64,000 nt of DNA, taken from Streptomyces niveus. GTDB taxonomy: Bacteria > Actinomycetota > Actinomycetes > Streptomycetales > Streptomycetaceae. The stretch is from NCBI RefSeq assembly GCF_002009175.1, contig NZ_CP018047.1, positions 5,766,001 through 5,830,000 of the forward strand. Reading direction: 5' to 3'. The notes beneath the pieces were generated by a model. That model was not told the origin of the DNA. It searched no databases and saw only the letters and a list, made by a program, of their open reading frames with translations. The stretch's first letter is position 1; each line of letters begins with the position of its first letter. The translations under genes were made by a program, and so were the position numbers. Positions 24,438 to 49,344 of this stretch are shown piece after piece.

Positions 24438-24854
24438 GTGACTCACGACGCCACGGAAGGCGCCACCAGGAGTTCGGCCTCACGGCCGGTCCGCACGGTA
24501 TGGGTGGTCGCGTTCGTCCTCCTCCTGGTCTTCGCCGTGTTCGAGGCGACGAAGTACGGCGGATGGGTGCTCGTCGCGGCACTCGCCGGTGCCGTCGCAC
24601 CCGACCTGTCGTTCCTCGCCGGCATCTCCGGCGGCCCGCACCGGCACGGCCAACTGCCCCGCAGAGCCGTGCCCCTCTACAACCTTCTGCACCGGCCCGT
24701 CGTGCCCGTGGTCGTCATGCTCGGCTGTCTGATCCCCGAATCCCCGTCCGTCGCCGTCCCCGTGTTCAACTTCGGTCTGGCCTGGCTGGTGCACATCGCC
24801 GCCGACCGGGCCCTCGGATACGGCCTGCGCACCCCCGACGGCTGGCAGCGCTGA
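24438..24854 (+). CDS. DUF4260 small membrane protein
   Basis: 138 aa, GTG start with GAAAGGAAG upstream. Three to four hydrophobic helices (about 22-38, 42-62, 88-106, 112-130). DUF4260 hallmarks: APDLSFL, PLYNLLHRPVVPVV, AWLVHIAADRALGYGLRTPDGWQR (the YGL-x-x-PDG ending). Family function unknown. Such proteins occur singly in many bacteria; its presence between the thioesterase and P450 genes could be incidental. Confidence 0.88.
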   Translation: MTHDATEGATRSSASRPVRTVWVVAFVLLLVFAVFEATKYGGWVLVAALAGAVAPDLSFLAGISGGPHRHGQLPRRAVPLYNLLHRPVVPVVVMLGCLIPESPSVAVPVFNFGLAWLVHIAADRALGYGLRTPDGWQR

Positions 24855-26533: not shown

Positions 26534-27793
26534 TCACACCCGGGTGGCGGGCGACTGCGCCTCCACGACGTGCGGCCCCGGCTTCTGGAGCTGGAAGTAC
26601 GCGCCCGCCAGCACCCGTTGCTTCAGCTTCTGGCTCCGGTCCATCACCCGGTACAGCGACCGGCGGCCGATACCTCCGACGCCGTGCAGGGCGAACAGCC
26701 GCTCCTGCCGCAGCTGCAGACCGCGCGACTTGGCGACCGACTCCTCCCGCGCCCGCTGGAACTCGGCGCCCGCACGCCCCAGCGCCGCCTCGTCCCCACC
26801 CGCGTCGATGGCGTCCCGCACGAGCGGGGCCAGCGTCACCGCGTCGATGATCGCGTGATTGACACCCTGGCCGAGGATCGGCGTCAGTGTGTGTGCCGCG
26901 TCGCCGATCAGGACCAGGCCGGGCATGGACCAGCTCGGCACCGTCGTGGTGAAGATGTCCAGCATCGAGGTGTCGGACCAGGAGCGGATCTCACTCCGTA
27001 CCGACCCGGCCAGCTCGGGAGCGAGCCCGTCGAGCCGCTCGTACAGCGCGGGCAGACCCTGGGCGCGCAGTTCCTTCAGTCCGCCCTTGGGGATGTTGAA
27101 ACCGACGCGCACACTGTCCGGGTGCGTCGGGATGAACAGCCCGTGCTGGTCGCCGCGGATCCGGATGCGGTAGGTACGGTCGTCCCACTCGGACGGGAAC
27201 GGCAGCTTCAGCCACACCACGTCACGTTCCAGCGGCACCTTCGTGTACGGCAGGCCCGACATCTCACGGACCTTGCTGAACCGGCCGTCCGCCGCCACCG
27301 TGAGCGCCGCGTGCACGGTCAGCTCGCCCTCCGGGGTGCGGGCCACCACCCCCGTGACCGGACCGCCCTCGCCGCCCGCACGCAGCAGGCGGGTGGCGGT
27401 CGCCCGGCGCACCAGGGTGAAGTGCTCCGGGTGCTCCTCCTGCCCGAGGGCCGCCAGCGCCGAGAGCAGCGCCGGCTGGGGCATCTCCACGGGGTAGGGG
27501 TGCGGATACGGGAAGCGGCGGAAGTCGGCGCGCATCACCGTGCTGCCGGAGTCGACGATCTCCATCCTGTGCATCTGCTGGTAGGCGCCGTCGAGCCGGC
27601 CGAGGACGCCCAGCTTGTCGAGCAGCCACACGGAGTCGGGAGAGACGGACTCGCCCCGGAACGACCGGTCGAAGTGACCGCTCTGTTCCACCACCACGAC
27701 CGAGACCGAACGCTTGGCGAGCTCAACGGCCAGCGTGAGTCCCGCCGGACCTCCTCCGACCACACACACGTCCGCGGTCAGCTCAGTTGTCAT
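26534..27793 (-). CDS. FAD-dependent monooxygenase/oxidoreductase (PHBH-like, class A)
   Basis: 419 aa; ATG at 27793 chosen so that the dinucleotide fold starts at the N-terminus (an upstream GTG at 27829 lacks support). Motifs: CVVGGGPAGLTLAVELAKR (GxGxxG, near 10-28), RGESVSPDSVWLL, LTVAADGRFSKVR (DG motif, near 170) and LVLIGDAAHTLTPILGQGVNHAIID (GD motif, near 292). A helical C-terminal tail replaces the thioredoxin-like domain of aromatic hydroxylases. Flavoproteins of this broad fold hydroxylate or epoxidise polyketides and in spirotetronate pathways include the cyclase PyrE3. Role here open: oxidation or cyclisation of the acyl chain. Divergent from the core operon. Confidence 0.85.
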   Translation of the reverse strand: MTTELTADVCVVGGGPAGLTLAVELAKRSVSVVVVEQSGHFDRSFRGESVSPDSVWLLDKLGVLGRLDGAYQQMHRMEIVDSGSTVMRADFRRFPYPHPYPVEMPQPALLSALAALGQEEHPEHFTLVRRATATRLLRAGGEGGPVTGVVARTPEGELTVHAALTVAADGRFSKVREMSGLPYTKVPLERDVVWLKLPFPSEWDDRTYRIRIRGDQHGLFIPTHPDSVRVGFNIPKGGLKELRAQGLPALYERLDGLAPELAGSVRSEIRSWSDTSMLDIFTTTVPSWSMPGLVLIGDAAHTLTPILGQGVNHAIIDAVTLAPLVRDAIDAGGDEAALGRAGAEFQRAREESVAKSRGLQLRQERLFALHGVGGIGRRSLYRVMDRSQKLKQRVLAGAYFQLQKPGPHVVEAQSPATRV

Positions 27794-27965: not shown

Positions 27966-29900
27966 GTGAGGACAGCAGTGACGACGTCCGACCTGGACCG
28001 CACCGGCCCCGTCAGCCCCCTCGTCCGGCTCCGCGCGTTGCACGGCGAGCAACGGCTCGCCGCCGAGTACCCGGTGGTGCCAGGACTGCTGGCCGAACTC
28101 GCCCAGCAGGACGACGGGTTCGCCCAGTTGTCCCGCGCGGGCAGGCTGCTCGCCAAGCTCGCCGCCGAGGACATCGCGGAGCGTCACACCGGCGTCGTAC
28201 CCGCGACCGTCGCTGTCACGGGACACGGCACCGTCGACGGGCTGACCGCACCGCTCACCGCGGAACTCGCCCGCCACGGCATCCCGCTGCGCGTCCGCGT
28301 CGGCGACCACGACCTGTGGCTGCGCGACCTCCAGGACACCACCAGTGACCTGTACGCCCCCGGGACCGAACTCGCGCTGTGCCTTCTCGACGCCCAGATC
28401 GTTTTCGACGAACTGCCGCTGCCCTGGGGGACGGAGGACGTCGCCAAAAGTGTCGCCGGGAAACTCGAACTCCTCGACCGGCTCGCCTCCCGCTACGACG
28501 AACACGGCACCGGGACGCTCGTGCTCAACACCCTGCCGCTGCTGCCCCAGCACACGCAGCAGCTGGTCGATCACCGGTCCCGCACCGAACTCTCCATCAT
28601 CTGGCGGGAGTTCAACATCGGTCTGCTGCGGCTCGCCGCCGCGCACCCGCGGCTGCACGTCGTCGACCTGGAGCCGTTGATCGCCGAGAGCGGACCGGTC
28701 CGTGACCCCCGGCTCGCCGCCTACGCCAAGGTGTACCTGGGGGAGGAGGTGCTGGCCCGGTACGCGCGTCAGGCGGGCCATCTGCTCCGGACGCTGCGCG
28801 GCAGGGCCAAGAAGGTCCTCGTCCTGGACCTCGACAACACCCTCTGGGACGGCATCCTCGGTGACGACGGACCCGACGGCATCGCCGCCGCCACCACCTA
28901 CCGCGGTGAGGTCTTCGGCCGGCTCCAGCGGGTGGCCAAGCAGATAGGCGGCCAGGGCGTACTGCTCGCGGTCTGCAGCAAGAACGACCGGGAGCCGGTG
29001 CTGGCCGTGCTCCGCGACCACCCCGACATGACCCTGCGCGAGGCCGACTTCGTCCGGATCGCCGCCAACTGGGAACCCAAGGACGGAAACATCCGGCACA
29101 TCGCCGAGCAGCTCAATCTCGGCACCGACAGCTTCGTCTTCGCCGACGACTCGCCCTTCGAACGCGGCCTCGTCGCCTCCTCGCTCCCCGAGATCGCCGT
29201 GATCGGCCTCGACGAGGAACCGGCGCTGCACATCGACCGGCTGCTCGCCGACGGCTGGTTCGACGTACGGGAACTGACCACCGAGGACCGGGGCCGCGCC
29301 GTGCAGTACCGCCAGGAGGCGGAACGGCAGGACCTGCGGCGGACCACCGGCTCGATGGAGGAGTACCTGCGCGACCTCGGTGTGTCCGTCGAGGTCGCCC
29401 CGGTACGCGACCACGAGGTGGCCCGGGTCTCCCAGATCACCCTGCGCACCAACCAGTTCAACCTCACCACCCGCAGACTCCAGGTCCCCGACGTCCGCGA
29501 ACGGCTCGGCTCGGCGGACGACCTGGTGCTCGCCGTGCGCTCCCGCGACCGCTTCGGTGACAACGGGGTCGTCGGCGCCGTCTTCGCGCGCCGGGAGGAC
29601 GAGGCCCTGCGTATCGACAACATGCTGCTCAGCTGCCGGGTCTTCGCCCGCGGTATCGAGCAGGCCGCCATCGCCGCGCTGCTGGAGCACGCCGTGGACT
29701 CGGGCGCCGCCGAGGTACGCGCGAGCTACCGGCCCACCGCCAAGAACCACAAGATGCGCGCCTTCTACCCGTCGCTCGGCTTCGAGCAGGCCGCCGAATC
29801 GGCGGACGGCACGGTCGAGTTCAGGCACCCGCTCACCCGGCTGCCCGAGGTGCCCGGACATGTGACCCTCGACGCGACCATCCGCAGTGGCACCGGATGA
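27966..29900 (+). CDS. FkbH-like glyceryl-ACP synthase (HAD-GNAT)
   Basis: 644 aa, GTG start. Residues about 60-250 form an N-terminal SGNH-like region; 280-430 a HAD phosphatase domain with LVLDLDNTLWDGILGDDG (D288, D290) and FADDSPFERGLV; 460-630 a GNAT-like C-terminal domain (LRTNQFNLTTRRL, MRAFYPSLGFE). FkbH proteins take 1,3-bisphosphoglycerate, dephosphorylate it and load D-glycerate on an ACP (FkbH, OzmB, RkE, Tmn16). No methyltransferase or dehydrogenases for methoxymalonyl-ACP are nearby, so the glyceryl unit should enter the tetronate ring, probably on the ACP at 39948. First gene of the core operon. Confidence 0.92.
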   Translation: MRTAVTTSDLDRTGPVSPLVRLRALHGEQRLAAEYPVVPGLLAELAQQDDGFAQLSRAGRLLAKLAAEDIAERHTGVVPATVAVTGHGTVDGLTAPLTAELARHGIPLRVRVGDHDLWLRDLQDTTSDLYAPGTELALCLLDAQIVFDELPLPWGTEDVAKSVAGKLELLDRLASRYDEHGTGTLVLNTLPLLPQHTQQLVDHRSRTELSIIWREFNIGLLRLAAAHPRLHVVDLEPLIAESGPVRDPRLAAYAKVYLGEEVLARYARQAGHLLRTLRGRAKKVLVLDLDNTLWDGILGDDGPDGIAAATTYRGEVFGRLQRVAKQIGGQGVLLAVCSKNDREPVLAVLRDHPDMTLREADFVRIAANWEPKDGNIRHIAEQLNLGTDSFVFADDSPFERGLVASSLPEIAVIGLDEEPALHIDRLLADGWFDVRELTTEDRGRAVQYRQEAERQDLRRTTGSMEEYLRDLGVSVEVAPVRDHEVARVSQITLRTNQFNLTTRRLQVPDVRERLGSADDLVLAVRSRDRFGDNGVVGAVFARREDEALRIDNMLLSCRVFARGIEQAAIAALLEHAVDSGAAEVRASYRPTAKNHKMRAFYPSLGFEQAAESADGTVEFRHPLTRLPEVPGHVTLDATIRSGTG

Positions 29901-30027
29901 CGTGCTCCGCGCCACCGGGTGCCGGGAACGCACAAGCGTCTCCTTAGTGCCCCCGACGACGATCGTGATGTCAGAGCAATTCGCGCCGGCGCATGCCAGC
30001 GGAACTCGGAGAGGTCGGGGAAAGACG

Positions 30028-31851
30028 TTGACGAACTTCCGAACCTTCACGGAACTGGTTCTTGAGCGCAGCGAGGCCCGCAAGGACGCGGATGCCTTCG
30101 TCTTCCTGCCCGACGATGCCCGCGGCTCGGTGCCGCAGCACCTCACCTCCACGGCGCTCGACCAGGAGGCGCGCCGGATCGCGTCCTGGCTCCAGGACCG
30201 CAACGCCGCGAAGCGCCAGGTGCTCCTGCTCTACCCGGCGGGCCTGGACTTCATCAAGGCGTTCACCGCCTGCATGTACGCCGGTGCCGTGGCCGTGCCC
30301 GGACCACTGCCCGCCGAGCAGGGCCAGCACTTCGCCCGGATCTCCGGCATTCTGCGCGACGCCGAGGCGTGCGCCGTACTCACCGACTCGGCCAACGCCC
30401 CCGCGATCTCCGCCTGGCTGGCCGCCGAGGGCTTCACCGACGTGGCGTGCCTGGCCACCGACGATCCCGCCCAGGGCGACGCGGGCGCCTGGCACGCGCC
30501 CTCCCTCACTCCGGAGAGCCTGGCCTTCCTCCAGTACACCTCCGGCTCGACCAGCGACCCCAAGGGAGTCGTGGTCTCGCACGGCAATCTGCTCGCCAAC
30601 GAGGCGGCGATCCAGCGGTCGATCGGCACCAGCTCGGAGAGCGTGTGCGGCGGCTGGCTGCCCTTCTACCACGACATGGGCCTGATCGGGCATATCCTCC
30701 ACCCGCTCTACCTCGGTGCCCAGGGCGTCCTCATGGCACCCTTCACCTTCCTCAAGCGCCCCTACCGCTGGCTGAAGATGATCAGCGACTACGGGATGAC
30801 CACCGGCGGCGGCCCCAACTTCGCGTACGACCTGTGCGTGCGCCGGGTCACCGACGCGCAGCTGGAGACGCTCGACCTGTCCACCTGGACCACCGCCTGC
30901 AACGGCGCGGAGCCGGTCAGGGCCGAGACGATCCGTGCCTTCACCGAGCGCTTCGCGCCCGTGGGCTTCCGCCCCGAAGCCATGTTCCCCTGCTACGGCA
31001 TGGCCGAGACGACCCTGCTCGTCACCGGCATCCCGCGCGGCGCCGCCGCCCGCGTGCTCGATGTCGACGCCGAGGCGCTGGAGCGCGGCGAACTGGCCGA
31101 CCCGCGTGGGGACTTCTCCACCCGCTCCCTCGTCAGCAGCGGAATCGCGCGGGACTTCGAGATCCGCGTCGTCGACCCGGAGACCCTCGTAGAGAAGCCC
31201 GCGGGACACGTCGGCGAGATCTGGCTCAAGGGCGACAGCGTCGCCTCCGGCTACTGGAAGCGGCCCGCGACCAACAAGGAGATATTCGAGGCGGTGATCT
31301 CCGGCGGCACGGGCGAGCAGGACACCGGCTGGCTGCGCACCGGCGACCTGGGCGCACTCCAGGACGGAGAGCTGTACGTCACCGGCCGGCTCAAGGAGCT
31401 GGTCATCCTCGCGGGCCGCAACCTCTATCCGCAGGACGTCGAACGCGCCGTCCAGTCCACGGACAAGGCCCTGGGCGCCGGCGCGGGCGCCGTCTTCGCC
31501 GTCGAGAGCGACCGCGAGCACCTGGTGGCCATCCAGGAGGTCCGCCCCGCCGCCGTCGCCACCGACCTGCACACCGTCGCCTCCGGGATCCAGAGCTTCA
31601 TCAGCAAGGAGTTCAGCGTTCCCGCGGGCAACGTCCTGCTGGTACGCCCCGGAACCATCCGCAAGACCACCAGCGGCAAGATCCAGCGGACCCTGATGCG
31701 CAAGCTGTTCCTGGAGGGCGGGATCACCCCGCTGTACGAGGTCCTGGAGCCGGCCGTCCGTGAACTGATCGTCTCCGCCGAGGCCGAGGCCGACGACGCG
31801 GCCACCGATGCCGACGCCGACGCCGCCAATTCCCTGGTACCGGTGGTCTGA
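30028..31851 (+). CDS. Fatty acyl-AMP ligase (FAAL)
   Basis: 607 aa; TTG at 30028 chosen because GGAGAGGTCGGGG lies before it and the family start TNFRTFTELVLERSE follows; an ATG at 29968 is possible but lacks a ribosome binding site. Adenylating-enzyme motifs: YTSGSTSDPKGVVVSH (near 170), PFYHDMGLIG (near 215), CYGMAETTLL (near 325), WLRTGDLG (near 440), GRNLYPQDVE (near 465) and KTTSGKIQR (catalytic Lys, near 555). HDMGLIG and GRNLYPQD are typical of FAALs, which pass fatty acids to an ACP rather than CoA. Partner is likely the ACP at 35580. Confidence 0.92.
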   Translation: MTNFRTFTELVLERSEARKDADAFVFLPDDARGSVPQHLTSTALDQEARRIASWLQDRNAAKRQVLLLYPAGLDFIKAFTACMYAGAVAVPGPLPAEQGQHFARISGILRDAEACAVLTDSANAPAISAWLAAEGFTDVACLATDDPAQGDAGAWHAPSLTPESLAFLQYTSGSTSDPKGVVVSHGNLLANEAAIQRSIGTSSESVCGGWLPFYHDMGLIGHILHPLYLGAQGVLMAPFTFLKRPYRWLKMISDYGMTTGGGPNFAYDLCVRRVTDAQLETLDLSTWTTACNGAEPVRAETIRAFTERFAPVGFRPEAMFPCYGMAETTLLVTGIPRGAAARVLDVDAEALERGELADPRGDFSTRSLVSSGIARDFEIRVVDPETLVEKPAGHVGEIWLKGDSVASGYWKRPATNKEIFEAVISGGTGEQDTGWLRTGDLGALQDGELYVTGRLKELVILAGRNLYPQDVERAVQSTDKALGAGAGAVFAVESDREHLVAIQEVRPAAVATDLHTVASGIQSFISKEFSVPAGNVLLVRPGTIRKTTSGKIQRTLMRKLFLEGGITPLYEVLEPAVRELIVSAEAEADDAATDADADAANSLVPVV

Positions 31852-31852
31852 C

Positions 31853-33688
31853 GTGGAACACCCGCCCTACCGGCTCGCGGAGGAGTTCGACCGCTTCCTC
31901 GGCGACCCCGGTGACCCCGACGAGGTCTTCTCCTACGCGCGTTGCGCGGAACTCGACGAGAAGGAGGAGTTCCCCGCCGACATCTGCGACCGCTTCCAGG
32001 AGTGGGGCCTGCCCGGCGAGTACGTACCGGTCGAGTACGGCGGCAGGCTGCACGACTACGAGCAGGTGCTCCAACTCGTCCGCACCGTCGCCCGCCGCGA
32101 TCTGACCTGCGCCATCGGGCACGGCAAGACCTACCTGGGCGGGGTCTGCGTCTGGGTGGCGGGCTCCGCGGAGCAGGGCGCCCGGCTCGCCGCCGACATC
32201 ATGGCCGGGGTCCCCGTCGCCCTCGGGCTCACCGAACGGGCCCACGGCAGCGACCTGCTGGCCAACGACGTGCGTACCGATAACAAGGCGGATAAGGCAG
32301 ACAACGCGGACAAGGCGGCGAACCCCGACGGCACGGCGGACCACTGGATGGTCAGCGGCGAGAAGTGGCTGATCAACAACGCCACGCGGGGGTCGGTGCT
32401 CTCACTGCTGACCCGCACCCATCCGGACGGGGGCCCGCGCGGGTTCAGCGTCCTCCTCGTGGACAAGCGCGAACTCGGCGAGGACACCTACCGCCACCTC
32501 CCGAAGATTCCCACCCTCGGCATCCGCGGCGCCGACATCTCCGGCATCGCCTTCGACGGCGCCCGGGTGCCGCGAAGCGCCCTCGTCGGTGCCGAGGGCG
32601 CCGGCCTGGAGATCGTGCTGAAGGCGCTCCAGCTCACCCGCACCATGTGCGCGGCACTGTCGCTCGGCGCCGGTGACCACGGACTGCGGCTCGGCCTGGA
32701 CTTCGCCGAGGAGCGCGAGCTGTACGGACGGCGGCTGATCGACCTTCCCCAGGCGAGGCACCTGCTGGTCGGCGCCGCCGCCGACGTACTGCTGCACGAG
32801 GCGGTGGCCCTGGTCGCCGCCCGCGCCGTACAGAGCCAGACCGCGGAACTCAGCGTCACCTCGGCCGTCATCAAGTATCTGCTGCCCACCGGCACCGACC
32901 AGGTCCTCGCCGACCTGACCGGGCTGCTCGGCGCCCGCGCCTTCCTCAAGGACGTCCACGCGGACGGCCGGTTCCAGAAGGTCGCGCGCGACCACCGCAT
33001 CGTCGGACTCTTCGACGGCAACACCCTGGTCAACCTCAACTCCCTGGTCAACCAGTTCCGTCCACTGGTCCGCGGCTTCAAGCGCGGCACCGGCGACACG
33101 GCCGGCGCCGCCGCGGCCTGCGACCTCGCCACACCGCTGCCGCCCCTGGACCCCTCGAAGCTGTCGCTGGTCGCCCGGCACGGCAGCGGAGTCATGGCGG
33201 GCCTCGCCGCCTCCGTCGAGGAGATCACCCGGAGGGCGGGACTCGACCCCGCGCTCGAACCGGTGGCCGACGCCGCGCGACGGCTCCTCGCCGTCACCCA
33301 CGCGGTGCACACCGAGATGGAGGAGTACCAGGGCGTGCTCGCCGAGGTCCCGGCCGCCGCCTTCGAGGTCGCGCGCCGCTACACCCTCTGCTGGGCGGGA
33401 GCGGCCTGTATCGGTCTGTGGACGCAGAGCGCCGACAGCCTCCGCGACGACGCCGCCACGGGAGCGCTGTGGCGCGACGGCCTGTGGCTGCGCGCCGCCC
33501 TCGACCGGTTGCTGGTCCGCCTCGGCGAACCGGCGGCGGACGGGGAGACGTACGACGAACTGCTCGGCGCCCTGCGGGCGGCCCGATCCTCGGGCCGGCT
33601 GTTCTCGCTGCTGCCGCAGCGGGGCCCCGAGCGGCAGCCCGCGATGCCCGCCGCGGCCGTCGGCGGGACCGAGAGGACGTCATGCTGA
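31853..33688 (+). CDS. Acyl-CoA dehydrogenase-like desaturase 1
   Basis: 611 aa from a GTG one base after the FAAL stop. Motifs of the ACAD fold: LGLTERAHGSDL (flavin loop, near 125), VSGEKWLINNAT (near 165), an RGADISGIAFDGARVP strand region and a C-terminal helical bundle with EERELYGRRL and KDVHADGRFQKVARDHRI. It is longer than CoA-type ACADs (about 380 aa), as in the ACADs paired with FAALs in enduracidin and ramoplanin clusters, which desaturate ACP-bound fatty acids. A Lys/Ala/Asp repeat (NKADKADNADKAANPD, about 143-158) interrupts the flavin-side domain. Overlaps the next gene. Confidence 0.88.
   Translation: MEHPPYRLAEEFDRFLGDPGDPDEVFSYARCAELDEKEEFPADICDRFQEWGLPGEYVPVEYGGRLHDYEQVLQLVRTVARRDLTCAIGHGKTYLGGVCVWVAGSAEQGARLAADIMAGVPVALGLTERAHGSDLLANDVRTDNKADKADNADKAANPDGTADHWMVSGEKWLINNATRGSVLSLLTRTHPDGGPRGFSVLLVDKRELGEDTYRHLPKIPTLGIRGADISGIAFDGARVPRSALVGAEGAGLEIVLKALQLTRTMCAALSLGAGDHGLRLGLDFAEERELYGRRLIDLPQARHLLVGAAADVLLHEAVALVAARAVQSQTAELSVTSAVIKYLLPTGTDQVLADLTGLLGARAFLKDVHADGRFQKVARDHRIVGLFDGNTLVNLNSLVNQFRPLVRGFKRGTGDTAGAAAACDLATPLPPLDPSKLSLVARHGSGVMAGLAASVEEITRRAGLDPALEPVADAARRLLAVTHAVHTEMEEYQGVLAEVPAAAFEVARRYTLCWAGAACIGLWTQSADSLRDDAATGALWRDGLWLRAALDRLLVRLGEPAADGETYDELLGALRAARSSGRLFSLLPQRGPERQPAMPAAAVGGTERTSC
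32280..32325 (+). repeat. In-frame short repeat coding KAD/NAD units
   Basis: Imperfect 9-bp-type units (AACAAGGCGGATAAGGCAGAC...) expand a surface loop of ACAD 1 by roughly 12-16 residues of K-A-D-K-A-D-N-A-D-K-A-A. Base composition is clearly lower in GC than the flanks, suggesting a recent slippage expansion. Confidence 0.7.
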
Positions 33689-35472
33689 TCGGCACAGAGC
33701 CCCAGAACGCGCACCCGCCGGCCGGGGCCGTACGCGACGGCGACGGGGCACCGGGACAGGAGGCGCGGGCCGTGGCCCGCGTCGCCGAACTGGACCGGCG
33801 GATGGGCGACCCCACCGACGAGAACAACGAACTGTCCTACAGCCGGCTGCTCCAGGCGGACGAGGCGGGTGAACTCTCCAAGGCCGGCGAGCGCGCCCTC
33901 GACGAACTGAGGCTCGGCGCCGACTTCGTGCCACGCGCCGAGGGTGGCCGCCTGGAGCGGCTCGACACCCTCGTACGGGTCATGCGACAGGTGTTCCGCC
34001 GCGACGTCGCCCTCGGCCTCGGCTACGGCGTGACCTCCTTCATGGCCGCCGTGAACGTCTGGGCCTCCGGGGACGCCGCGCAGCGCGAACGCCTCGCCCG
34101 GATCCTCACCGGCGGCGGCAAGATCTCGGTCGCCTACCACGAACTCGCGCACGGCAACGACTTCGTCCGCAACGAGTTCGAGGCCCGCCCCGCCGAGGGA
34201 GGCGGGTATCTGCTGAACGGATCCAAGCAGGTCATCAACAACGCCGACCGGGCGGACGCCTGGGTCCTGTTCGGCCGCACCAGCCCCGCACCGGGCAGCC
34301 GCAGCCACTCCGTGCTCTTCGTCGAGCGCGAAGGGCTCGACACGGACACCTGGCAGGTACTGCCCCGCTACGACGCCGTCGGCGTGCGCGGCTGCCATCT
34401 GTCCGGACTGCGGTTCGACAACACACCCGTGTCCGCCTCGGCCCTTGTCGGCGAGAGCGGAAAGGGAGTCGAAACCGCCCTGCGCGCCTTCCAGATCACC
34501 AGGTCCGCGCTCCCCGGCATGGCGGTCGGCACCACCGACACGGCCCTGCGGACCGTCGTACGCTTCGCGCTGGGCCGACGCCTCTACCGGAAATCCGTCA
34601 TGGAGATCCCGCACGCCAGGGCCACGCTGTCCGGGGCCTTCACCGATCTTCTGACCTGCGACAGCCTCTCCCTGGCCGCGACCCGGTCGGTGCACCTGCT
34701 CCCCGAACAGACCAGCGTCTTCGCCGCCGCCACCAAGTACCTGGTCCCGAAGCTGCTCACCGACGCCATGCACGAGCTCTCCGTCGTGCTCGGGGCCCGC
34801 TTCTACGTCCGTGACGGTGAGCACGGGATCTTCCAGAAGCACATCCGCGACCTGCCGGTGCTCAGCCTCGGCCACGCCGGCTCCGTGGCCTGCCAGGCCA
34901 CGATCATTCCCCAGCTGTCCCGGCTCGCCCGGCGTTCCTGGTTCAGCGACGAACCGGCGCCCGCGGAACTCTTCCGGCCGCGCGCCGACCTGCCGGAGAT
35001 CTCCTACGACCGGCTCACCCTGGCCGGCGGACGGGACGGGCTCAGCGCCACGCTGGTCGCGGCTTTGGACACGCTGCCGGGCGGGACACCCGAGGAGCAG
35101 GCCGTCCACGGGCTCGCGCGGCAACTCGTGGACGAGCTGCGGCAGGTCCAGGAGGCGAGCCGCGCGCTCGCACCCGAGGACCGTACGGCGCTCGCCGCCC
35201 CCGGCACCTTCGCTCTCGCCGACCGGTACGCCGTCCTGCTCGCGGCGGCCTCGGCGATCGGTGTCTGGCAGCAGGCGTCCCGCGACGGCGGCGACCCGTT
35301 TCTCGCCGACCCCGCCTGGCTCGCCGCCGCACTGCACCGTCTCGCCCGGCGGCTCGGCCGGCGGCCCGCCGAACTCCCGGCGTCCGTGGACGCCCGGATG
35401 CACGAAGAGGTACTGCGCAGGTTCCACGCGCGCAGCAGCTACGACCTGTACGACACCACGCTCGCCGGCTGA
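33682..35472 (+). CDS. Acyl-CoA dehydrogenase-like desaturase 2
   Basis: 596 aa, ATG at 33682 overlapping the ACAD 1 stop by 7 bp. Paralogue of its neighbour with the same layout: YHELAHGNDFVRNEF (near 155), LNGSKQVINNADRADAWVLFG (near 178), VGVRGCHLSGLRFDNTPV (near 235), ALGRRLYRKSVMEIPHAR (near 300) and YVRDGEHGIFQKHIRDLPVLSL (near 375). The general base Glu of CoA-type ACADs is not obvious in either protein. Two ACADs beside a FAAL suggest two desaturations, or a heterodimer, on an ACP-bound fatty acid, as proposed for the dienoyl chains of ramoplanin and enduracidin. Confidence 0.88.
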   Translation: MLIGTEPQNAHPPAGAVRDGDGAPGQEARAVARVAELDRRMGDPTDENNELSYSRLLQADEAGELSKAGERALDELRLGADFVPRAEGGRLERLDTLVRVMRQVFRRDVALGLGYGVTSFMAAVNVWASGDAAQRERLARILTGGGKISVAYHELAHGNDFVRNEFEARPAEGGGYLLNGSKQVINNADRADAWVLFGRTSPAPGSRSHSVLFVEREGLDTDTWQVLPRYDAVGVRGCHLSGLRFDNTPVSASALVGESGKGVETALRAFQITRSALPGMAVGTTDTALRTVVRFALGRRLYRKSVMEIPHARATLSGAFTDLLTCDSLSLAATRSVHLLPEQTSVFAAATKYLVPKLLTDAMHELSVVLGARFYVRDGEHGIFQKHIRDLPVLSLGHAGSVACQATIIPQLSRLARRSWFSDEPAPAELFRPRADLPEISYDRLTLAGGRDGLSATLVAALDTLPGGTPEEQAVHGLARQLVDELRQVQEASRALAPEDRTALAAPGTFALADRYAVLLAAASAIGVWQQASRDGGDPFLADPAWLAAALHRLARRLGRRPAELPASVDARMHEEVLRRFHARSSYDLYDTTLAG

Positions 35473-35579
35473 CGGGAACCCGCCCGGCCGCCCACCGGAC
35501 TCCGGCCCGTTCCCCGACGGCCGCCGGACGACATCACGACAGCAAGCGAGAACCGCTCATCCCCGCCGAGGAGTCCACC

Positions 35580-35867
35580 ATGCCCGTTCCGACCACCGGA
35601 CATACCACCGAGTCTCTGACCACGTGGTTGGCCGAGCGCATCGCCCTCTACCTCAAGCGGCGGCCCGACGAGATCGCCTCGGACGTGCCCCTCGCCGAGT
35701 ACGGCCTCGACTCCGTCGCCGCCCTCAGCCTCTGCGGAGACATCGAGGACGACTTCGACCTCGTGGTGGAGCCGACGGTCGCCTGGGACTACCCGACCGT
35801 CGACGCGCTCGCCGTCCATCTCATGGAGGAGATCGCCGCGGATACCGCGAAGAGCGGCGGCGCTTGA
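35580..35867 (+). CDS. Stand-alone acyl carrier protein 1
   Basis: 95 aa, ATG with GAGGAG upstream. Four-helix ACP fold with phosphopantetheine Ser45 in AEYGLDSVAALSL. The AEYGLDS form, with YGLDS rather than LGxDS, is common in carrier proteins that accept FAAL-activated fatty acids and sit before a PKS. The stop shares one base with the PKS start (TGATG). Expected role: receives the acyl chain from the FAAL, presents it to the two desaturases, then to the KS. Confidence 0.93.
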   Translation: MPVPTTGHTTESLTTWLAERIALYLKRRPDEIASDVPLAEYGLDSVAALSLCGDIEDDFDLVVEPTVAWDYPTVDALAVHLMEEIAADTAKSGGA

Positions 35868-38800
35868 TGGAGCCCGTAGCCATCGTCGGCATCGACTGCA
35901 GATTTCCGGGGGCGCCCGACACCGGCGCCTACTGGGACCTGCTGATGCGCGGCGCAGACGGGGTCAGGGAGGTGCCCCGGCAGCGCTGGGACGCCAAGGA
36001 GTTCCACTCCGAAGCCGGAGAGGAAGGACACACCAACACCACCCAGGGCGGCTTCATCGCCGACCCGGACGCCTTCGACGACGAGTTCTTCACCATCTCG
36101 CCGCGCGAGGCCGCCGCCATGGACCCCCAGCAGCGGCTGCTGCTCCAGTCCGCGTGGCGGGCGGTCGAGGACGCGGGGATCGCACCGCGGAACCTCGCCG
36201 GTACCCCGACCGGGGTCTTCGTCGGCGTCATGGGCAACGAGTGGGCGCAACTGCATCTCACCGACTACCCGAACGTCACCGCCCAGGTCGGCTCCGGCAA
36301 CGGCTACTGCATGACCGCCAACCGGATCTCCTACCATCTCGACCTGAAGGGCCCCAGCCTCGCCGTCGACACCGCCTGCTCGTCCTCACTGGTCGCAGCG
36401 CATCTCGCGGTGAACGCGCTGCTGTCCGAGGAGTGCGACCAGGCGCTCGTCGGCGGCGTCAACCTGGCCCTCACCCCGGCTCTGTCGATCTTCTACACCC
36501 AGGCCGGGCTCTCGGCCCCCGACGGGCGCTGCAAGCCCTTCAGCGCCGAGGCGAACGGCATCGGCCGCGGCGAGGGCGTCGGCGTGATCGTGCTGCGCAG
36601 GCTGCGGGACGCGATCGCCGACGGACAGCGCGTGTACGCCGTCATCCGTGGCATCGCCGTCAACCAGGACGGCCGCAGCAACGGGCTGACCGCTCCCAAC
36701 CGCTGGGCCCAGCAGGAAGTGCTTGCCGCCGCCTACCGCAGGGCCGGGGTCGAGCCCTCCGACGTGGTCTTCACCGAGGCCCACGGGACCGGCACCGGAC
36801 TCGGCGACATGATGGAGGTCAAGGCACTAGGCCACCACCACGCCGACCGCACGGGCAAGCCCATGGCACTCGGCTCGGTCAAGGGCAACCTCGGCCACAC
36901 CGAAGGCGCCGCCGGCATCGCGGGGCTCATCAAGGTCGCCCTCTCCCTGCACCACCGGGTGGTCCCCGCCAGCCGCTCCGCGGCCAAGGAGAACAAGCAG
37001 CTCAAGCTGCGCGACCACGGGCTCCGGCTGCTCAAGGCACCGCTGCGGCTGCCCGCCGGCCCCACCGTCGCCGGACTCAGCAGCTTCGGCATGGGCGGCA
37101 CCAACGCCCACGCGGTCCTGGAGTCCGCGCCCGGCCACGCCGCCCGCCCAGAGGCGGCGAACGGCGCCGCGCCGGGCGGTATCGGCGCCGCCGTCTTCAC
37201 CCTCACCGCGCCGAACGCCGACGCGCTGCGCCGCAACCTGCTGACCCAGGCGGACGCGGCGGCGGCCCGCCGCGTACCGCTGGGCCCGCTGGCCAGGGCC
37301 GGCAACCGGGTCAAGGCCGGCCATCGCCACCGCTTCGCGATCACCGCCACCGACACCGCCGAACTCGTCGCCGGACTGCGCGAGTCGGCCGCCGACCCCG
37401 AGCTGCTGGCCCGGCTCTCCGGCCGGCCCACCGCGCGCCCCCGCACCGCGTTCCTGTTCACCGGGCAGGGCTCGCAGTACCCCCGTATGACCGCAGCCCT
37501 GTACGAACAGTCGCCGCTGTACCGGCACTTCCTCGACGAGGCCGACGCCGCACTGCTGCCGCACACCGGGCGTTCCGTGCGCGACCTGATCCTCGCCGGT
37601 GACGTGGCGGTCCACAGCACCCGGTGGACGCAGCCCGCGCTGTTCGCCGTCGGCTACGCCCTAGGCCGGACCCTGATGGCGCTCGGCGTCCGGCCCGGTC
37701 TGCTCCTGGGCCACAGCGTCGGCGAGTTCGCCGCCGCCGTCCTGGCCCGAGCCCTTCCGCTGGACGGCGCCGCCCAGCTGATCGCCGCGCGCGGCGCCCT
37801 GATGCAGGAACTCCCCGCGGGCGGCGGCATGCTGTCCGTCCGGGCGGCCGGTGAGGACCTTCAGGGGTGGATCGAGCGCGAGCCCCTGGTCGGCCTGGCC
37901 GCGGTCAACGGCCCCACCTCCACGGTGCTCTCCGGTGATCTGGAGACCCTGGACCGGATCGGTGCCGAGATCGAGGCCAAGGGATTCACCACCCGGAGAC
38001 TCCAGGTCTCGCACGCCTTTCACTCACCGCTGATGCGGCCCGTACTGGACCGCTTCGCCAAGATCGCCGCCGAGGTCGGCGGGGGAGTGCCGGAGATCCC
38101 CCTGTACTCGACCGTGCGCGGCCGGGTGCTCGACGACGAGGCGATGGACGCCTCGTACTGGGTCGAACACATCAGCGCCACCGTGCAGTTCGGTGACGCC
38201 GCCGCCGCGCTGCTCGCCGAGGGCCCGACCCACCTCGTGGAGATCGGTCCCCAGCCGGTGCTCTCCGGGATGGTGCGCCGTCTCGACCGGCCCGCCGAGG
38301 GCGCGGGCCCGGCGCATGTGCTGCCGGTGCACGGGCCCGAGTCCACCGGCCGGGCGCTCGCCGAGGCCCTCGCCGAGCTGTACCGGGGCGGCGTCGAGCC
38401 CGACTGGGACGCCGTGTACGCACCCGAGGAGAGGGTCGCGCACCCGCTGCCGCCGTACACCTTCTCGAAGGAACACCGTTACTGGGCGAGGAACCCGGTA
38501 CGGGGGCCGGGCACGGCCGCCGTGGCGGCGGCCGTGCGGACGGACCCGGCGCTCGTACCGCGTTCCGAGCCGGAGACCGCCCCCGCGTCCGTCCTCCCCC
38601 TGGACCGGACCGGCGGCCCGGCCGATCCGGTCGCGGACGCCGTCCTCGGGGCCGTCCGGCTGGTCGGCGGCTGGAGCGACGTCAGCCCCCACGACCGGCT
38701 CTACGAGGATCTCGGTTTCGACTCCGTCATGATCATGGAACTCAAGAACCGGCTGGAGGCCCGGCTCGCGGGCATCGGCTCCCTGACGGTCCAGGACCTG

Positions 38801-38932
38801 CTGCCCCGCCTCTCCTCGGTCGGCGACCTCGTCGCCTTCCTGCGCGAATTCGGCGCGTCGGTGCCCGGTCCCGTGAGCTTCGGCGACACCGGGGAGAACC
38901 GGGCGCTCATGGAAGAAGAGAGGACAGCATGA
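35867..38932 (+). CDS. Single-module type I PKS (KS-AT-ACP)
   Basis: 1021 aa. KS (about 1-425): Cys171 in DTACSSSL, His in EAHGTGTGLGD (near 306) and KGNLGHTEGAAG (near 344). AT (about 525-840): GQGSQYPRM, Ser617 in LLGHSVGEF and HAFHSPLM, the HAFH form selecting malonyl-CoA. ACP at the C-terminus: LYEDLGFDSVMIMEL with Ser953. No KR, DH, ER or thioesterase, so it adds one malonate and leaves a beta-keto group, exactly the substrate a tetronate-forming KAS III would need. No N-terminal docking domain: KS starts at residue 3, consistent with loading from the free ACP encoded before it. Confidence 0.95.
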   Translation: MEPVAIVGIDCRFPGAPDTGAYWDLLMRGADGVREVPRQRWDAKEFHSEAGEEGHTNTTQGGFIADPDAFDDEFFTISPREAAAMDPQQRLLLQSAWRAVEDAGIAPRNLAGTPTGVFVGVMGNEWAQLHLTDYPNVTAQVGSGNGYCMTANRISYHLDLKGPSLAVDTACSSSLVAAHLAVNALLSEECDQALVGGVNLALTPALSIFYTQAGLSAPDGRCKPFSAEANGIGRGEGVGVIVLRRLRDAIADGQRVYAVIRGIAVNQDGRSNGLTAPNRWAQQEVLAAAYRRAGVEPSDVVFTEAHGTGTGLGDMMEVKALGHHHADRTGKPMALGSVKGNLGHTEGAAGIAGLIKVALSLHHRVVPASRSAAKENKQLKLRDHGLRLLKAPLRLPAGPTVAGLSSFGMGGTNAHAVLESAPGHAARPEAANGAAPGGIGAAVFTLTAPNADALRRNLLTQADAAAARRVPLGPLARAGNRVKAGHRHRFAITATDTAELVAGLRESAADPELLARLSGRPTARPRTAFLFTGQGSQYPRMTAALYEQSPLYRHFLDEADAALLPHTGRSVRDLILAGDVAVHSTRWTQPALFAVGYALGRTLMALGVRPGLLLGHSVGEFAAAVLARALPLDGAAQLIAARGALMQELPAGGGMLSVRAAGEDLQGWIEREPLVGLAAVNGPTSTVLSGDLETLDRIGAEIEAKGFTTRRLQVSHAFHSPLMRPVLDRFAKIAAEVGGGVPEIPLYSTVRGRVLDDEAMDASYWVEHISATVQFGDAAAALLAEGPTHLVEIGPQPVLSGMVRRLDRPAEGAGPAHVLPVHGPESTGRALAEALAELYRGGVEPDWDAVYAPEERVAHPLPPYTFSKEHRYWARNPVRGPGTAAVAAAVRTDPALVPRSEPETAPASVLPLDRTGGPADPVADAVLGAVRLVGGWSDVSPHDRLYEDLGFDSVMIMELKNRLEARLAGIGSLTVQDLLPRLSSVGDLVAFLREFGASVPGPVSFGDTGENRALMEEERTA

Positions 38933-39951
38933 CCACTCCGACGAGCTATATCGCCTCCATCGGCACCGCACTGCCCGGTGACCCGGTGGACAACGCCACC
39001 CTGTCCAAGGTGCTCGGCATCAATGAGGAGTGGATCGAGGTCTTCATCGGTACCAGGACGCGGTACTTCGCCCGCGACCTCGGCACCGGCGTGGTGCGCT
39101 GGTCGCTCGCCGACCTGTGTGCGCAGGCCGCCGAGCGGGCACTGGCCGCCCCCGGTGTCGATCCGTCCGAGATCGAGTTCATCGTCCTCGGCACGGCCAC
39201 CCCGGACACCCTGATGCCCGCCACCGTCAACCATGTCGCCGACCAGCTCGGCCTGGACCAGGTCCCCACCCTCCAGCTCCAGTCCGGTTGCGCCGGCGCC
39301 GTACAGGCCCTCGGCGTCGCCCAGTCGATGATCGCCTCGGGGCAGTACCGCACCGGTCTCGTCATCGGCGGCGACGTGTGCAGCAAACACCTCGATCTCC
39401 AGCGCGACGTGTCCGGCGCCGCCTCCGGAGACCTCGTCAACTACGTCCTGTTCGGCGACGGAGCCGGCGCTGCCGTCCTCACCGACGAGCCGCGCGGACA
39501 GGGCGTCGCCCTGCGCCAGGTCCTCAACCGCTTCACCGGGCTGGGCCGCAAGCCCGGTCAGGTCATCGAGTGGTTCGGGCTCGCCGACCGGTACGACGAC
39601 CGGCAGGCCCTCACCGAGGACTACAAGGCCATCGAGGAGTTCGTGCCCGTCATGGCGGTCGAGATCCTCTGGGAGATGCTCGGCGAGCTCGACTGGGAGG
39701 CCGATCAACTCGACTATCTGCTGCCGCCCCAGCTGTCCGGCCGGATGACCCGCCGCATCACCGAGGAACTCGACGTGCCGACCGCGAAGGAAATCTCGTG
39801 CGTCGCGGACACCGGCAACAACGGAAACGCCCTGCCCTTCCTGCAGATGGAAAAGTTGCTGGAGGGGATGTCGGGCGGCGAGCGGGCCCTCGCGGTCGCC
39901 GTCGAGTCCAGCAAGTGGATCAAGGCCGGCTTCGCCCTGGAGAAGATATGA
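38929..39951 (+). CDS. FabH-like KAS III, tetronate-forming type
   Basis: 340 aa, ATGA overlap with the PKS stop. Thiolase fold with Cys121 in LQSGCAGAVQAL and Asn297 in ADTGNNGNA. The usual catalytic His position (30 residues before Asn, as 244/274 in E. coli FabH) is Pro267 in LLPPQLSGRM, so the His is missing. Close relatives in tetronate clusters (RkD, ChlM, Tmn15, Agg3/QmnD2 group) join a beta-ketoacyl thioester with glyceryl-ACP through C-C and C-O bond formation to make the tetronate ring. Position between the PKS and second ACP supports this. Confidence 0.88.
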   Translation: MTTPTSYIASIGTALPGDPVDNATLSKVLGINEEWIEVFIGTRTRYFARDLGTGVVRWSLADLCAQAAERALAAPGVDPSEIEFIVLGTATPDTLMPATVNHVADQLGLDQVPTLQLQSGCAGAVQALGVAQSMIASGQYRTGLVIGGDVCSKHLDLQRDVSGAASGDLVNYVLFGDGAGAAVLTDEPRGQGVALRQVLNRFTGLGRKPGQVIEWFGLADRYDDRQALTEDYKAIEEFVPVMAVEILWEMLGELDWEADQLDYLLPPQLSGRMTRRITEELDVPTAKEISCVADTGNNGNALPFLQMEKLLEGMSGGERALAVAVESSKWIKAGFALEKI

Positions 39952-40220
39952 GCATCGACAGCACCACCCCCGCGTCCGTTCCCGAAACGGGCGGCTTCAC
40001 CCTTGACGACTACGTCGTGCTCATCAACGACGAGATCGGTATGCCGCTCGCACCCGAGCAGGTGGCCGCCGACTTCGACGAACTCCCCGACTGGGACTCG
40101 CTGCACCTCCTCAAGCTCATCACGGCCCTGGAATCCGCCATCGGCCACAAGGTCCCGGTCGCCGAGATCCTCCAGACCCGCAGCCTCAAGGAGATCTACG
40201 AGCTGGCGGTGTCGGGGTGA
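39948..40220 (+). CDS. Stand-alone acyl carrier protein 2 (glyceryl carrier)
   Basis: 90 aa, ATGA overlap with the KAS III stop and GTGA overlap with the next start. Phosphopantetheine Ser51 in DELPDWDSLHLLKLI. The DWDSL motif and acidic N-terminal helix (TLDDYVVLINDEIG) resemble the discrete ACPs that receive glycerate from FkbH-like enzymes in tetronate and methoxymalonyl pathways. Predicted to carry D-glyceryl and deliver it to the KAS III. Confidence 0.92.
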   Translation: MSIDSTTPASVPETGGFTLDDYVVLINDEIGMPLAPEQVAADFDELPDWDSLHLLKLITALESAIGHKVPVAEILQTRSLKEIYELAVSG

Positions 40221-41065
40221 GCACCGCCGCCGTACGCCGCCGCCGCCACACCCTGTACTTCCTGGAGTGGGCGGCGGCCCAGCGGCCCGTACACCTGGAC
40301 ACCGACGTCGACATGACCCGCATTCAGGCGCACCGTGCCGCCGCCCGCGACAACGGCCGGCGCTACTCGGTCGTCGGGTATCTGCTGTACGCCGCCGGGC
40401 GGGTCCTCGACCGTCACCCCGAGGCCAACGCCGTCATGGCTCCCGGCTGGCCGCGACTGCTGCGCCGCCCGAGGATCGTCCGCTTCGACGGCGTCACCGC
40501 CAAACTCGCCCTGGACCGGCCCGTCGAGGGCGAGCGCATCGTACTCTCGGCGCTCGTTCCCGGCCTGGAGACCGCGAATCTGCGGGAGATCCAGGAACGA
40601 ATCGACCGCTACCAGGGCGAACAGGCCGCCGAACTGCCCGAGTTCAAGGGCGTACGGATGCTCGGCCGGCTTCCGGTCCCGCTCGGCAGAGCCGCCTTTG
40701 CCGCGGCGCTGCGCGATCCGAAGAGGCGCGCCGGCGTGTTCGGAACCGTCTCGGTCAGCTCGCTCGGCCACCGCAACGTCGACGGCTTCCACTCGGCCGG
40801 CGGCACCGCCGTGACCCTCTGCGCGGGCCGCATCGTGGAACGTGCGGTCGTCCGCGACGGCGTCGTGGTGCCCGCGCCGATGATGCGACTGGGCCTCACC
40901 TTCGACCACCGGGTGATCGACGGCGCGACCGCGGCCGACGTGCTGTCCGATCTCCACCACACGATGGAGACCTTCGATGACGGCACCTGGGCGCCGGACC
41001 CCGGCCCTCGGGGAGCCGATCGTGATCCCCGGCCCCTCGGCGGACTGGAGCAGAGTACGCGCTGA
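40217..41065 (+). CDS. E2-like (2-oxoacid dehydrogenase-type) acyltransferase
   Basis: 282 aa, GTG start. Only the catalytic acyltransferase domain of E2 enzymes: no lipoyl or peripheral-subunit-binding domain. Active-site motif FDHRVIDGATAADVL with His231 and Asp235; VFGTVSVSSLGH (near 176) is the substrate-channel region. Free-standing E2 domains in tetronate clusters (Agg4, QmnD3, AbyA4) O-acetylate the ring hydroxymethyl so that acetate can be eliminated to an exocyclic methylene. The last 89 bp overlap the phosphopantetheinyl transferase start. Confidence 0.88.
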   Translation: MSTAAVRRRRHTLYFLEWAAAQRPVHLDTDVDMTRIQAHRAAARDNGRRYSVVGYLLYAAGRVLDRHPEANAVMAPGWPRLLRRPRIVRFDGVTAKLALDRPVEGERIVLSALVPGLETANLREIQERIDRYQGEQAAELPEFKGVRMLGRLPVPLGRAAFAAALRDPKRRAGVFGTVSVSSLGHRNVDGFHSAGGTAVTLCAGRIVERAVVRDGVVVPAPMMRLGLTFDHRVIDGATAADVLSDLHHTMETFDDGTWAPDPGPRGADRDPRPLGGLEQSTR

Positions 41066-41828
41066 CCTGGACCGGCACGGGGTCGCGCTGCTCTGCGCCC
41101 GCCAGGACGACTGGCGACCGGAAGGGGCGGGCGAGCGGCTGCGCGCGCTCCTGGGCCACGACTGGGAGCGCTATCTGGAGCTGACGCACCGTCAGGTCCG
41201 GACCCGGTTCGCCGCCTCCCGCGTCCTGCTGAAGTTCGGGGCCGCCGCGGCGCTCGGCGTACGGCCCGAGTCCGTCGAACTCGGCTACGGCCTGGGCGGC
41301 CGTCCCTGTCTGCGCGGCTACGACGGGGTGCACATCAGCCTCAGTCACACCGACGACCTGCTGCTGGTCGGCCTGGCCACCGACGGCGCGATCGGCGTCG
41401 ACGCCGAACGGAGCGACCGTGTCCTCTACGGCTCCGGTCTCGTCCGGCACATGTGCACCCCGTACGAGGCGGAGCGCATCGAGGCCATGCCCGTCGCCGG
41501 GCGCAACCCCGCGATGGTCCGGCTGTGGACCCTGAAGGAGGCCTACAGCAAAGCCGTTGGCCTCGGCATGAAGCTCGGCTTCACCGACTTCGGCTTCAGC
41601 CCGGACCGGGCCCCCACCGATGTGCTGCGCCCCGACGGCACCCCCGGAACGGTCGGCGCGTGGGCCTTCCACACCATGTCGTACGCCGGCCGCTACACCC
41701 TCGGCGTCGCCGTCGGTGACGCCGGCTTCGGCCGCACGACGGACCCGTCGGCGGCCACGGCCCTGGACCCGCTCACCGTCGACGCCCTGCTGGCGGCAAT
41801 CGCCGAGGAGGAGCGGGACACGCCTTAG
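40977..41828 (+). CDS. Sfp-type 4'-phosphopantetheinyl transferase
   Basis: 283 aa. Sfp-family motifs: ISLSHTDDLLLVGL (near 122), AIGVDAERSD (Mg-binding Asp, near 140) and LWTLKEAYSKAVGLG (near 183, the WxxKEA signature). It converts apo-ACPs to holo form and has three in-cluster clients: two free ACPs and the PKS ACP. The ATG at 40977 overlaps the acyltransferase gene by 89 bp; an internal start near GTG codons after 41065 would remove the overlap but leave the core motifs intact. Last gene of the core operon. Confidence 0.9.
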   Translation: MTAPGRRTPALGEPIVIPGPSADWSRVRADLDRHGVALLCARQDDWRPEGAGERLRALLGHDWERYLELTHRQVRTRFAASRVLLKFGAAAALGVRPESVELGYGLGGRPCLRGYDGVHISLSHTDDLLLVGLATDGAIGVDAERSDRVLYGSGLVRHMCTPYEAERIEAMPVAGRNPAMVRLWTLKEAYSKAVGLGMKLGFTDFGFSPDRAPTDVLRPDGTPGTVGAWAFHTMSYAGRYTLGVAVGDAGFGRTTDPSAATALDPLTVDALLAAIAEEERDTP

Positions 41829-44875: not shown

Positions 44876-44883
44876 CGCGCGGC

Positions 44884-45894: not shown

Positions 45895-45933
45895 GGGTTT
45901 GGGAATCCTTTGCTGCGGTGTCCGGCGGCTCCG

Positions 45934-45957
45934 CGGAAACGCTTGCGGGGTATGTGC
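45934..45957. promoter_or_regulatory. Weak ARE-like site upstream of the AfsA-like gene
   Basis: GGAAACG...GGTATGTGC, on the other strand GCACATACC...CGTTTCC, resembles one half (ACATACC) of autoregulatory elements bound by butyrolactone receptors; the other half is poor. 40 bp before the start. Confidence 0.25.

Positions 45958-47429: not shown

Positions 47430-49344
<1,915 letters not shown>

Follow-up and report, generated by a model that had tools for sequence, protein, structure and literature searches.

Our analysis of a 64,000-nucleotide stretch of Streptomyces niveus DNA (the window; contig NZ_CP018047.1, positions 5,766,001 to 5,830,000, in a genome that is a single contig of 7.99 Mb) points to a gene cluster whose product, built on a free fatty acid, is probably a glycosylated 3-acyl-5-methylidene tetronate, a reading that is strong at the level of the genes, the structure of the product being a prediction. 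At its centre lies a forward-strand core (27978-41828) encoding, in that order, an FkbH-like protein, a fatty acyl-AMP ligase (FAAL), two acyl-CoA/acyl carrier protein dehydrogenases (ACAD1 and ACAD2), an acyl carrier protein (ACP1), a ketosynthase-acyltransferase-ACP (KS-AT-ACP) protein, a KAS III, a second ACP (ACP2), an E2-like acyltransferase and a 4'-phosphopantetheinyl transferase (PPTase). Under our choice of start codons, neighbouring genes share 1-44 bases or are separated by 1-127 bases, and we read them as one operon. All of them had been listed in an earlier note on this DNA and were recovered in order on the same strand by Pfam, NCBIfam and motifs, with small start shifts; the coordinates given there were right for the operon and too narrow for the cluster, which spans about 22.7-63.9 kb, from a SARP gene to an AbyA5-type gene whose last base is 63897. 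The third-position GC content (GC3) of the core genes, about 0.9, and the identical order of their homologues across many species exclude a chance occurrence of the set.

The tetronate five-gene "glycerate-utilisation" set, its term and its roles are given in PMC7489565 (this and the other papers cited by PMC number are drawn on through excerpts), the roles of abyA1-A5 and the identities of RkD (KAS III) and RkE (FkbH) of the RK-682 pathway in PMC5819245, and the RK-682 ACPs, RkC and RkF, in PMC4979870. The earlier grouping of FkbH, ACP, KAS III and E2 as a tetronate set holds: the KAS III is AbyA1-like, FkbH and ACP2 score above their cut-offs, and the E2-like protein matches PF00198, with an H[RH]xxDG motif in 51/51 homologues counted. 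The fifth, AbyA5-type gene had been missed. It lies beyond the trideoxysugar block, could be aligned with 49 homologues from other loci, and is homologous to open reading frames that follow E2 in loci without a FAAL. Since it completes a full abyA1-A5 type set, the predicted product is an acyl tetronate with a 5-methylidene (exomethylene) group; an E2 lacking its partner is ruled out by this homologue. In known pathways E2 acetylates the hydroxymethyl group and a hydrolase-fold enzyme eliminates acetate (PMC5819245, PMC7489565, PMC4979870), the exomethylene of agglomerin A arising by Agg4 acetylation and Agg5 elimination (PMC4979870).

The KAS III is placed among the tetronic acid condensing enzymes by structure and phylogeny. 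Phylogeny, which the earlier note had named as a possible refutation, put it within the tetronate group, with a support of 96 for the main split in the first tree, in which the outgroup row L004 was misplaced among tetronate rows. Five of the eight outgroup rows (L004-L008) were dropped before the final tree: L004 and L005 were bad extractions, as their terminal branches of length 10 showed, and the other three formed a distant group. The alignment comprised 27 hand-picked sequences; L011 and L027 do not differ and apparently come from one strain, and one more own-genome PF08541 match (C1:336741) was left out. The window's KAS III shares up to 96% identity with S. niveus proteins, and the FabH His is consistently lost in its group.

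The proposal that a FAAL loads a fatty acid that is extended once without reduction was borne out as regards the FAAL-like sequence and the domains; its chemistry we infer. The ligase's top PDB matches are chains named Polyketide synthase (496 bits), Saframycin Mx1 synthetase B (382 bits) and Acyl-CoA synthase (317 bits), which we take to be FAALs; chains named FadD32, FadD23, FadD28 or Fatty Acyl-Adenylate Ligase score 288-237 bits and 4-coumarate-CoA ligase only 89 bits. By these comparisons it is closer to solved FAALs than to acyl-CoA ligases, and hence classed as a FAAL. Both ACPs have a Ser in the expected motif. No ketoreductase, dehydratase or enoylreductase domain was matched by Pfam in the KS-AT-ACP protein, and the HAFH motif of its AT is presumably the one usual for malonyl. 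The arrangement FAAL-ACAD1-ACAD2-ACP occurs in four other Streptomyces regions (L131, L132, L134 and L139) and, with no FAAL match, in L136; as no KAS III or FkbH match was found within these five stretches, the cassette is a more general lipid-loading unit, here placed ahead of one polyketide synthase (PKS) module.

In the pathway we propose, the FAAL would adenylate a fatty acid and load it onto ACP1, the carrier-bound chain would be oxidised by ACAD1 and ACAD2, probably to the thioester of a conjugated dienoic acid, and the KS-AT-ACP protein would add one malonyl unit and, since it lacks reductive domains, leave a beta-ketoacyl thioester. FkbH would put glycerate on ACP2, and the AbyA1-type KAS III would couple the acyl and glyceryl units and close the tetronate ring. 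Acetylation of the 5-hydroxymethyl group by the E2-like enzyme and elimination of acetate by the AbyA5-type one would then give the exomethylene, as for Agg4/Agg5 and QmnD3/QmnD4. Oxidation by the FAD monooxygenase and the P450 and attachment of a neutral 2,3,6-trideoxyhexose would complete the product, with no positions predicted for them; the 2,3-dehydratase, 3-ketoreductase, RfbH-like 3-dehydrase, RmlA and RmlB would fit such a sugar, for example rhodinose or amicetose.

Comparison of the window's KAS III with genome contigs gave 143 stretches with relatives, of which the best 80 were analysed and typed by matches in flanks of at most 10 kb per side. These comprise 34 loci with a FAAL and two ACADs, 19 with ACAD2 only, eight with no ACAD and 19 with no FAAL. 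A FAAL was detected in 58/80, in forms with 0, 1 or 2 ACADs, so that the design, for which no product was found in the literature searched, is not unique; dozens of related species have this core set. Three ACAD2-only loci without a FAAL (L026, L043, L050) are cut contigs whose tree position is among two-ACAD rows. E2 is present in every two-ACAD locus except L071 (33/34), and an AbyA5 homologue in 25; among the nine others, L019 and L031 carry it after the sugar block, contig ends cut L018, L020, L022, L023 and L027 short, and none was found in L049 and L071 across about 21 kb. Neither E2 nor AbyA5 was matched in any of the 16 FAAL-bearing ACAD2-only loci, which thus look like 5-hydroxymethyl, RK-682-like systems. 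The gene order in loci with 0 or 1 ACAD is FAAL-ACP-KS-AT-ACP-KAS III-FkbH-ACP, and, of the 19 FAAL-less loci, some have several KS-AT matches, as in large PKSs, and two or more (L045 and L070 among them) are short contigs. Locus types are clustered in the KAS III tree without forming single clades; the 16 label changes, a figure that counts unnamed and outgroup rows as labels and is inflated by cut contigs, suggest repeated loss or exchange of loading units. A divergent variant, L127, has ACAD2, PPTase, KAS III (45%), FkbH (37%), E2 (35%), AbyA5-like (33%), FAD enzyme (38%) and KS-AT (44%) matches, and no FAAL match within the stretch.

The gene of the FAD monooxygenase marks window-type clusters, with an orthologue in 34/35 window-type genomes and 0/10 others, a count that drew on 45 of the 80 KAS III loci. 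In 17/18 regions examined, taken from 18 of those genomes, it adjoins the P450 gene. Its alignment held 16 of the 21 listed enzymes plus that of the window. In S. coacervatus (the genome of L071) a FAD monooxygenase match (G092:C54:394149-395357) contains an in-frame TGA.

Several observations weigh against the pathway as drawn. All NCBIfam FAAL models match the ligase below their cut-offs; seven of the eight ACAD-less loci have an AbyA5 homologue and no E2 match, so that the pairing of acetylation with elimination is broken in part of the family (the eighth, L032, has both and groups with the window type in the tree); the RmlC score is under the family cut-off; and the family name of glycosyltransferase 1 (GT1) implies an activator protein, of which none was identified, though none was searched for. 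The canonical catalytic Glu is, moreover, absent from both ACADs: at the MCAD-type alignment column, which we take to be its site, ACAD1 has Asp (Asp388) in 35/35 sequences and ACAD2 His in 54/54, the IVD-type position being occupied by Thr in ACAD1 and, among the ACAD2 forms listed, by either Thr or Ser, so that the number and place of the double bonds are a guess. The Asp and His suggest an altered chemistry, and 16 FAAL-bearing loci carry ACAD2 without ACAD1; it is conceivable, if on balance doubtful, that the ACADs give no dienoyl chain, one of them introducing just a 2,3-double bond and the second catalysing an isomerisation or a distal oxidation, which would leave the chain mono-unsaturated or differently oxidised. 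Yet the ACAD domains are intact, the same Asp/His pair recurs in the ACAD1-ACAD2-ACP units of L131, L132, L134, L136 and L139, and a FAAL with two ACADs is known from lipopeptides that bear a dienoyl chain, ramoplanin for one. The His does not extend to the whole of the wider ACAD2 family: of 16 rows, from genomes hand-picked among 101 with ACAD2 matches, 12 have it, 2 have Arg, 1 has Ser and 1 a gap. Those matches, in 101/295 genomes at E <= 1e-100, mix tetronate and other clusters and were not used as prevalence. If a diene is formed, it might, though we think this improbable, enter with the exomethylene tetronate into an intra- or intermolecular [4+2] cycloaddition, spontaneous or aided by the FAD enzyme, to give a small spirotetronate or a dimer. 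The near-constant E2 of two-ACAD loci, the FAD enzyme that follows that set and its distant kinship with PyrE3 (47 bits, a weak match, the enzyme being nearer to Bacillus niacini FMO) are in line with this; PyrE3 was absent among the 50 matches shown, and a search with PF18678, presumably the AbyU family, was empty at E <= 1, neither being proof of absence. Such exomethylene-diene cycloadditions are described for spirotetronates (PMC4979870).

A korAB copy and a two-component pair stand between the core and the sugar block in the window, which also weighs against a single pathway, and the S. scabiei and S. griseosporeus stretches examined have no sugar-gene match; two separate clusters that are merely close would account for both. 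We consider this very improbable: in two named species, S. brasiliensis and S. macrolidinus, the sugar block begins 1-2 kb past AfsA and ends with the AbyA5 gene otherwise missing from the core. Sugar block and hydrolase thus come straight after the core in these relatives, and the possibility that the sugar genes are unrelated to it was rejected on this contiguity. The order after the core in S. brasiliensis (L019, L106, L141, L143) is AfsR, AfsA, ferredoxin, response regulator, GT1, RmlC, RmlA, RmlB, reductase, RfbH-like, epimerase, 2,3-dehydratase, 3-ketoreductase, GT2, AbyA5 homologue and histidine kinase, and in S. macrolidinus (L031, L142) the same minus the ferredoxin and epimerase matches. 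It is also unlikely, though less so, that the product of the single pathway we favour has already been isolated and described, just not tied to this cluster in the literature searched. The family is widespread in much-screened Streptomyces and the search was mostly without subscription papers, but no matching compound came up, and S. scabiei BGC 23a-d (type 1 PKS, butyrolactone, linear azole-containing peptide, PKS-like) are called cryptic (PMC8914351). We take these biosynthetic gene clusters to be L041, L117 and L116 from the matching types there (KS-AT, AfsA, YcaO, KAS III-like), likened by type and not by locus tag.

Upstream of FkbH, the SARP, thioesterase, DUF4260, P450 and divergent FAD genes are shared with relatives L105-L110; after 63897 no obvious cluster gene was seen by eye, no family scan having been made there. 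In L113 (Streptomyces sp. SID9727, the genome of L032), which has no ACAD matches, the FAD enzyme is kept, and RfbH-like, 2,3-dehydratase and 3-ketoreductase genes lie upstream of the core. The ferredoxin adjoins AfsA in L019, L039, L041 and L144 and is absent in L031. The korAB block (window 46381-49269) is 98.9% identical in DNA to a copy near 3.12 Mb of the contig, with 33 differences over 2889 bases, mostly at third codon positions (korA 2/2, korB 26/30). As 30 of the 33 are crowded into the last 640 bases, this looks like gene conversion; with KorA 100% identical between the copies, a role as a resistant target copy was rejected. In S. scabiei, S. stelliscabiei and S. griseosporeus, too, a cluster-linked korA copy is found close to AfsA, and korAB possibly supplies electrons to the P450. 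Draft contigs L018, L020 and L027 stop less than about 1 kb past AfsA, at the point where one would expect a repeated korAB copy to start; the repeat is a likely assembly break in drafts, and the rest of the cluster may be hidden there. Outside the cluster, at 8006-9864 of the window, lie another response-regulator-like gene and a neighbour, the first residues resembling, by eye, those of the 49448-50056 regulator.

Table 1. Features of the S. niveus cluster, in window coordinates.
Feature	Coordinates	Strand	Evidence and remarks
SARP-type regulator (BTAD)	22689..23489	+	Pfam BTAD 139 bits; equivalent position in close relatives L105-L110
Type II thioesterase, probably editing	23603..24373	+	Pfam Thioesterase 144 bits; GHSMG motif; present in L105-L110
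DUF4260 protein, role unassigned	24504..24854	+	Pfam PF14079; recurs in related clusters
Cytochrome P450, tailoring	24993..26228	+	Pfam p450; heme Cys motif intact by eye
FAD monooxygenase, aromatic-hydroxylase type	26534..27793	-	
FkbH-like glyceryl-S-ACP synthase (AbyA2/RkE role)	27978..29900	+	TIGR01686 317 bits, cut-off 146.65; motif DLDNTLW
Fatty acyl-AMP ligase	30028..31851	+	Start uncertain (29887 or 30028); NCBIfam FAAL models among best matches; PDB matches
ACAD1	31853..33688	+	Pfam ACAD domains
ACAD2	33682..35472	+	Pfam ACAD domains
ACP1, carrier of FAAL-loaded acyl chain	35580..35867	+	PP-binding 51.9 bits; GLDSV motif
Lone KS-AT-ACP module	35867..38932	+	Pfam domains; KS Cys-His-His intact; AT GHSVG; HAFH motif
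KAS III, tetronate-forming (AbyA1/RkD role)	38929..39951	+	
ACP2, glyceryl carrier (AbyA3/RkF role)	39948..40220	+	PP-binding 24.3 bits, cut-off 20.8; DWDSL motif
E2-like acyltransferase (AbyA4/Agg4 role)	40217..41065	+	PF00198 65 bits; HRVIDG
4'-Phosphopantetheinyl transferase	41022..41828	+	PF01648 54 bits
AfsR/SARP-type large regulator	42092..45079	-	BTAD, NB-ARC, TPR
AfsA-like butyrolactone synthase	44884..46008	-	PF03756 64 bits
Ferredoxin	46051..46371	-	4Fe-4S domains; cluster-linked in several relatives
2-Oxoacid:ferredoxin oxidoreductase pair korB, korA	46368..49389	-	Pfam TPP_enzyme_C, POR/POR_N; second genome copy
LuxR-type response regulator	49448..50056	-	Pfam; near AfsA in L019, L031, L143, L144
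Histidine kinase	50134..51405	-	HisKA_3; counterpart after AbyA5 gene in L141, L142
GT1, activator-dependent family	51825..53111	+	TIGR04516 444 bits, cut-off 440
RmlC-like sugar epimerase	53179..53751	+	TIGR01221 136.5 bits, below cut-off 155.75
Glucose-1-phosphate thymidylyltransferase (RmlA)	53872..54939	+	TIGR01208 422 bits
dTDP-glucose 4,6-dehydratase (RmlB)	54936..55922	+	TIGR01181 416 bits
NAD-dependent sugar reductase/epimerase, probably 4-ketoreductase	55909..56910	+	PF01370
RfbH-like sugar 3-dehydrase	56907..58220	+	NF011936 675 bits, cut-off 423
Short epimerase-family protein	58258..59007	+	PF01370; no match in L142
NDP-hexose 2,3-dehydratase	59051..60448	+	PF03559 549 bits
NDP-sugar 3-ketoreductase, GFO/IDH family	60445..61431	+	PF01408
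Glycosyltransferase 2 (GT2), macrolide family	61445..62626	+	TIGR01426 404 bits
AbyA5/Agg5-type hydrolase-fold eliminase, fifth tetronate gene	62851..63897	+	PDB AbyA5 5no5 315 bits

The cluster would provide all that is needed to reach a bioactive ring system by a short route, in which one extension module and a free fatty acid starter could allow chain length and unsaturation to vary without rebuilding a large PKS. Tetronate biosynthesis appears here as separable units, namely a loading cassette (with 0, 1 or 2 ACADs), a one-step extension, a ring former, an exomethylene pair and a decoration, a division from which predictions can be drawn and tested in dozens of Streptomyces clusters; the lost FabH His of the KAS III group and the fixed Asp/His of the ACADs raise two mechanistic questions. 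We tentatively suggest, as a conjecture that goes further than the gene assignments, that there is a widespread uncharacterised family making FAAL-primed, twice-desaturated 3-acyl-5-methylidene tetronates, with ACADs that use Asp and His where Glu is usual, a dedicated FAD monooxygenase acting on the diene-exomethylene tetronate by oxidation or [4+2] closure, and an exchangeable decoration, a trideoxysugar here and perhaps an acyl-ligase/PLP (pyridoxal phosphate)-decarboxylase-ACP/KAS III module in S. scabiei. Besides an AMP-ligase, a PLP decarboxylase-ACP fusion, an MMPL transporter and YcaO/ThcOx genes, the counterpart in that species (L116 4717-10053, and L117) has two additional KAS III-like proteins; together these may form a decoration module of another kind.

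No paper in the literature searched was found to bring a FAAL and a tetronate together, and a term search of the 2025 FAAL review (PMC11837247) gave no word starting 'tetron'. The contrast drawn in the earlier note with systems that build the chain with a larger PKS was overstated, because there are tetronates whose pathways hijack intermediates of fatty-acid synthesis, according to a review (PMC4979870). RK-682 is among the clusters of >50% similarity in S. fildesensis (PMC6522549). What the window appears to hold is FAAL-primed acyl-tetronate biosynthesis, known in kind, in a variant with two ACADs, an exomethylene and glycosylation, on a branch that appears uncharacterised in the literature searched. 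With RK-682 it has KAS III, FkbH and ACPs in common and would share the 3-acyl tetronate; it differs in adding two ACADs, E2, the AbyA5 homologue, the FAD enzyme, the P450 and sugar genes, and in having FkbH first in the operon; RK-682 retains its hydroxymethyl group and is not known to carry a sugar. The rkA-rkF lettering would fit the gene order of loci with 0 or 1 ACAD, and RK-682 might itself be FAAL-primed; no rk-named protein was among 120 homologues listed from the ACAD-less locus search. Agglomerin A (agg) has in common with the predicted product an exomethylene acyl tetronate made by acetylation and elimination, and we know of no glycosylation in its pathway, whereas the window has sugar genes. 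Spirotetronate systems of the abyssomicin/quartromicin type share counterparts of all five AbyA1-A5 proteins, but have a large PKS in place of one KS-AT-ACP after a FAAL, and the window has no PF18678 match. In FAAL-ACAD lipopeptide lipoinitiation, finally, a FAAL and a free ACP likewise feed an assembly line (PMC9113097), the receiver being a non-ribosomal peptide synthetase there and one PKS module with a tetronate former here.

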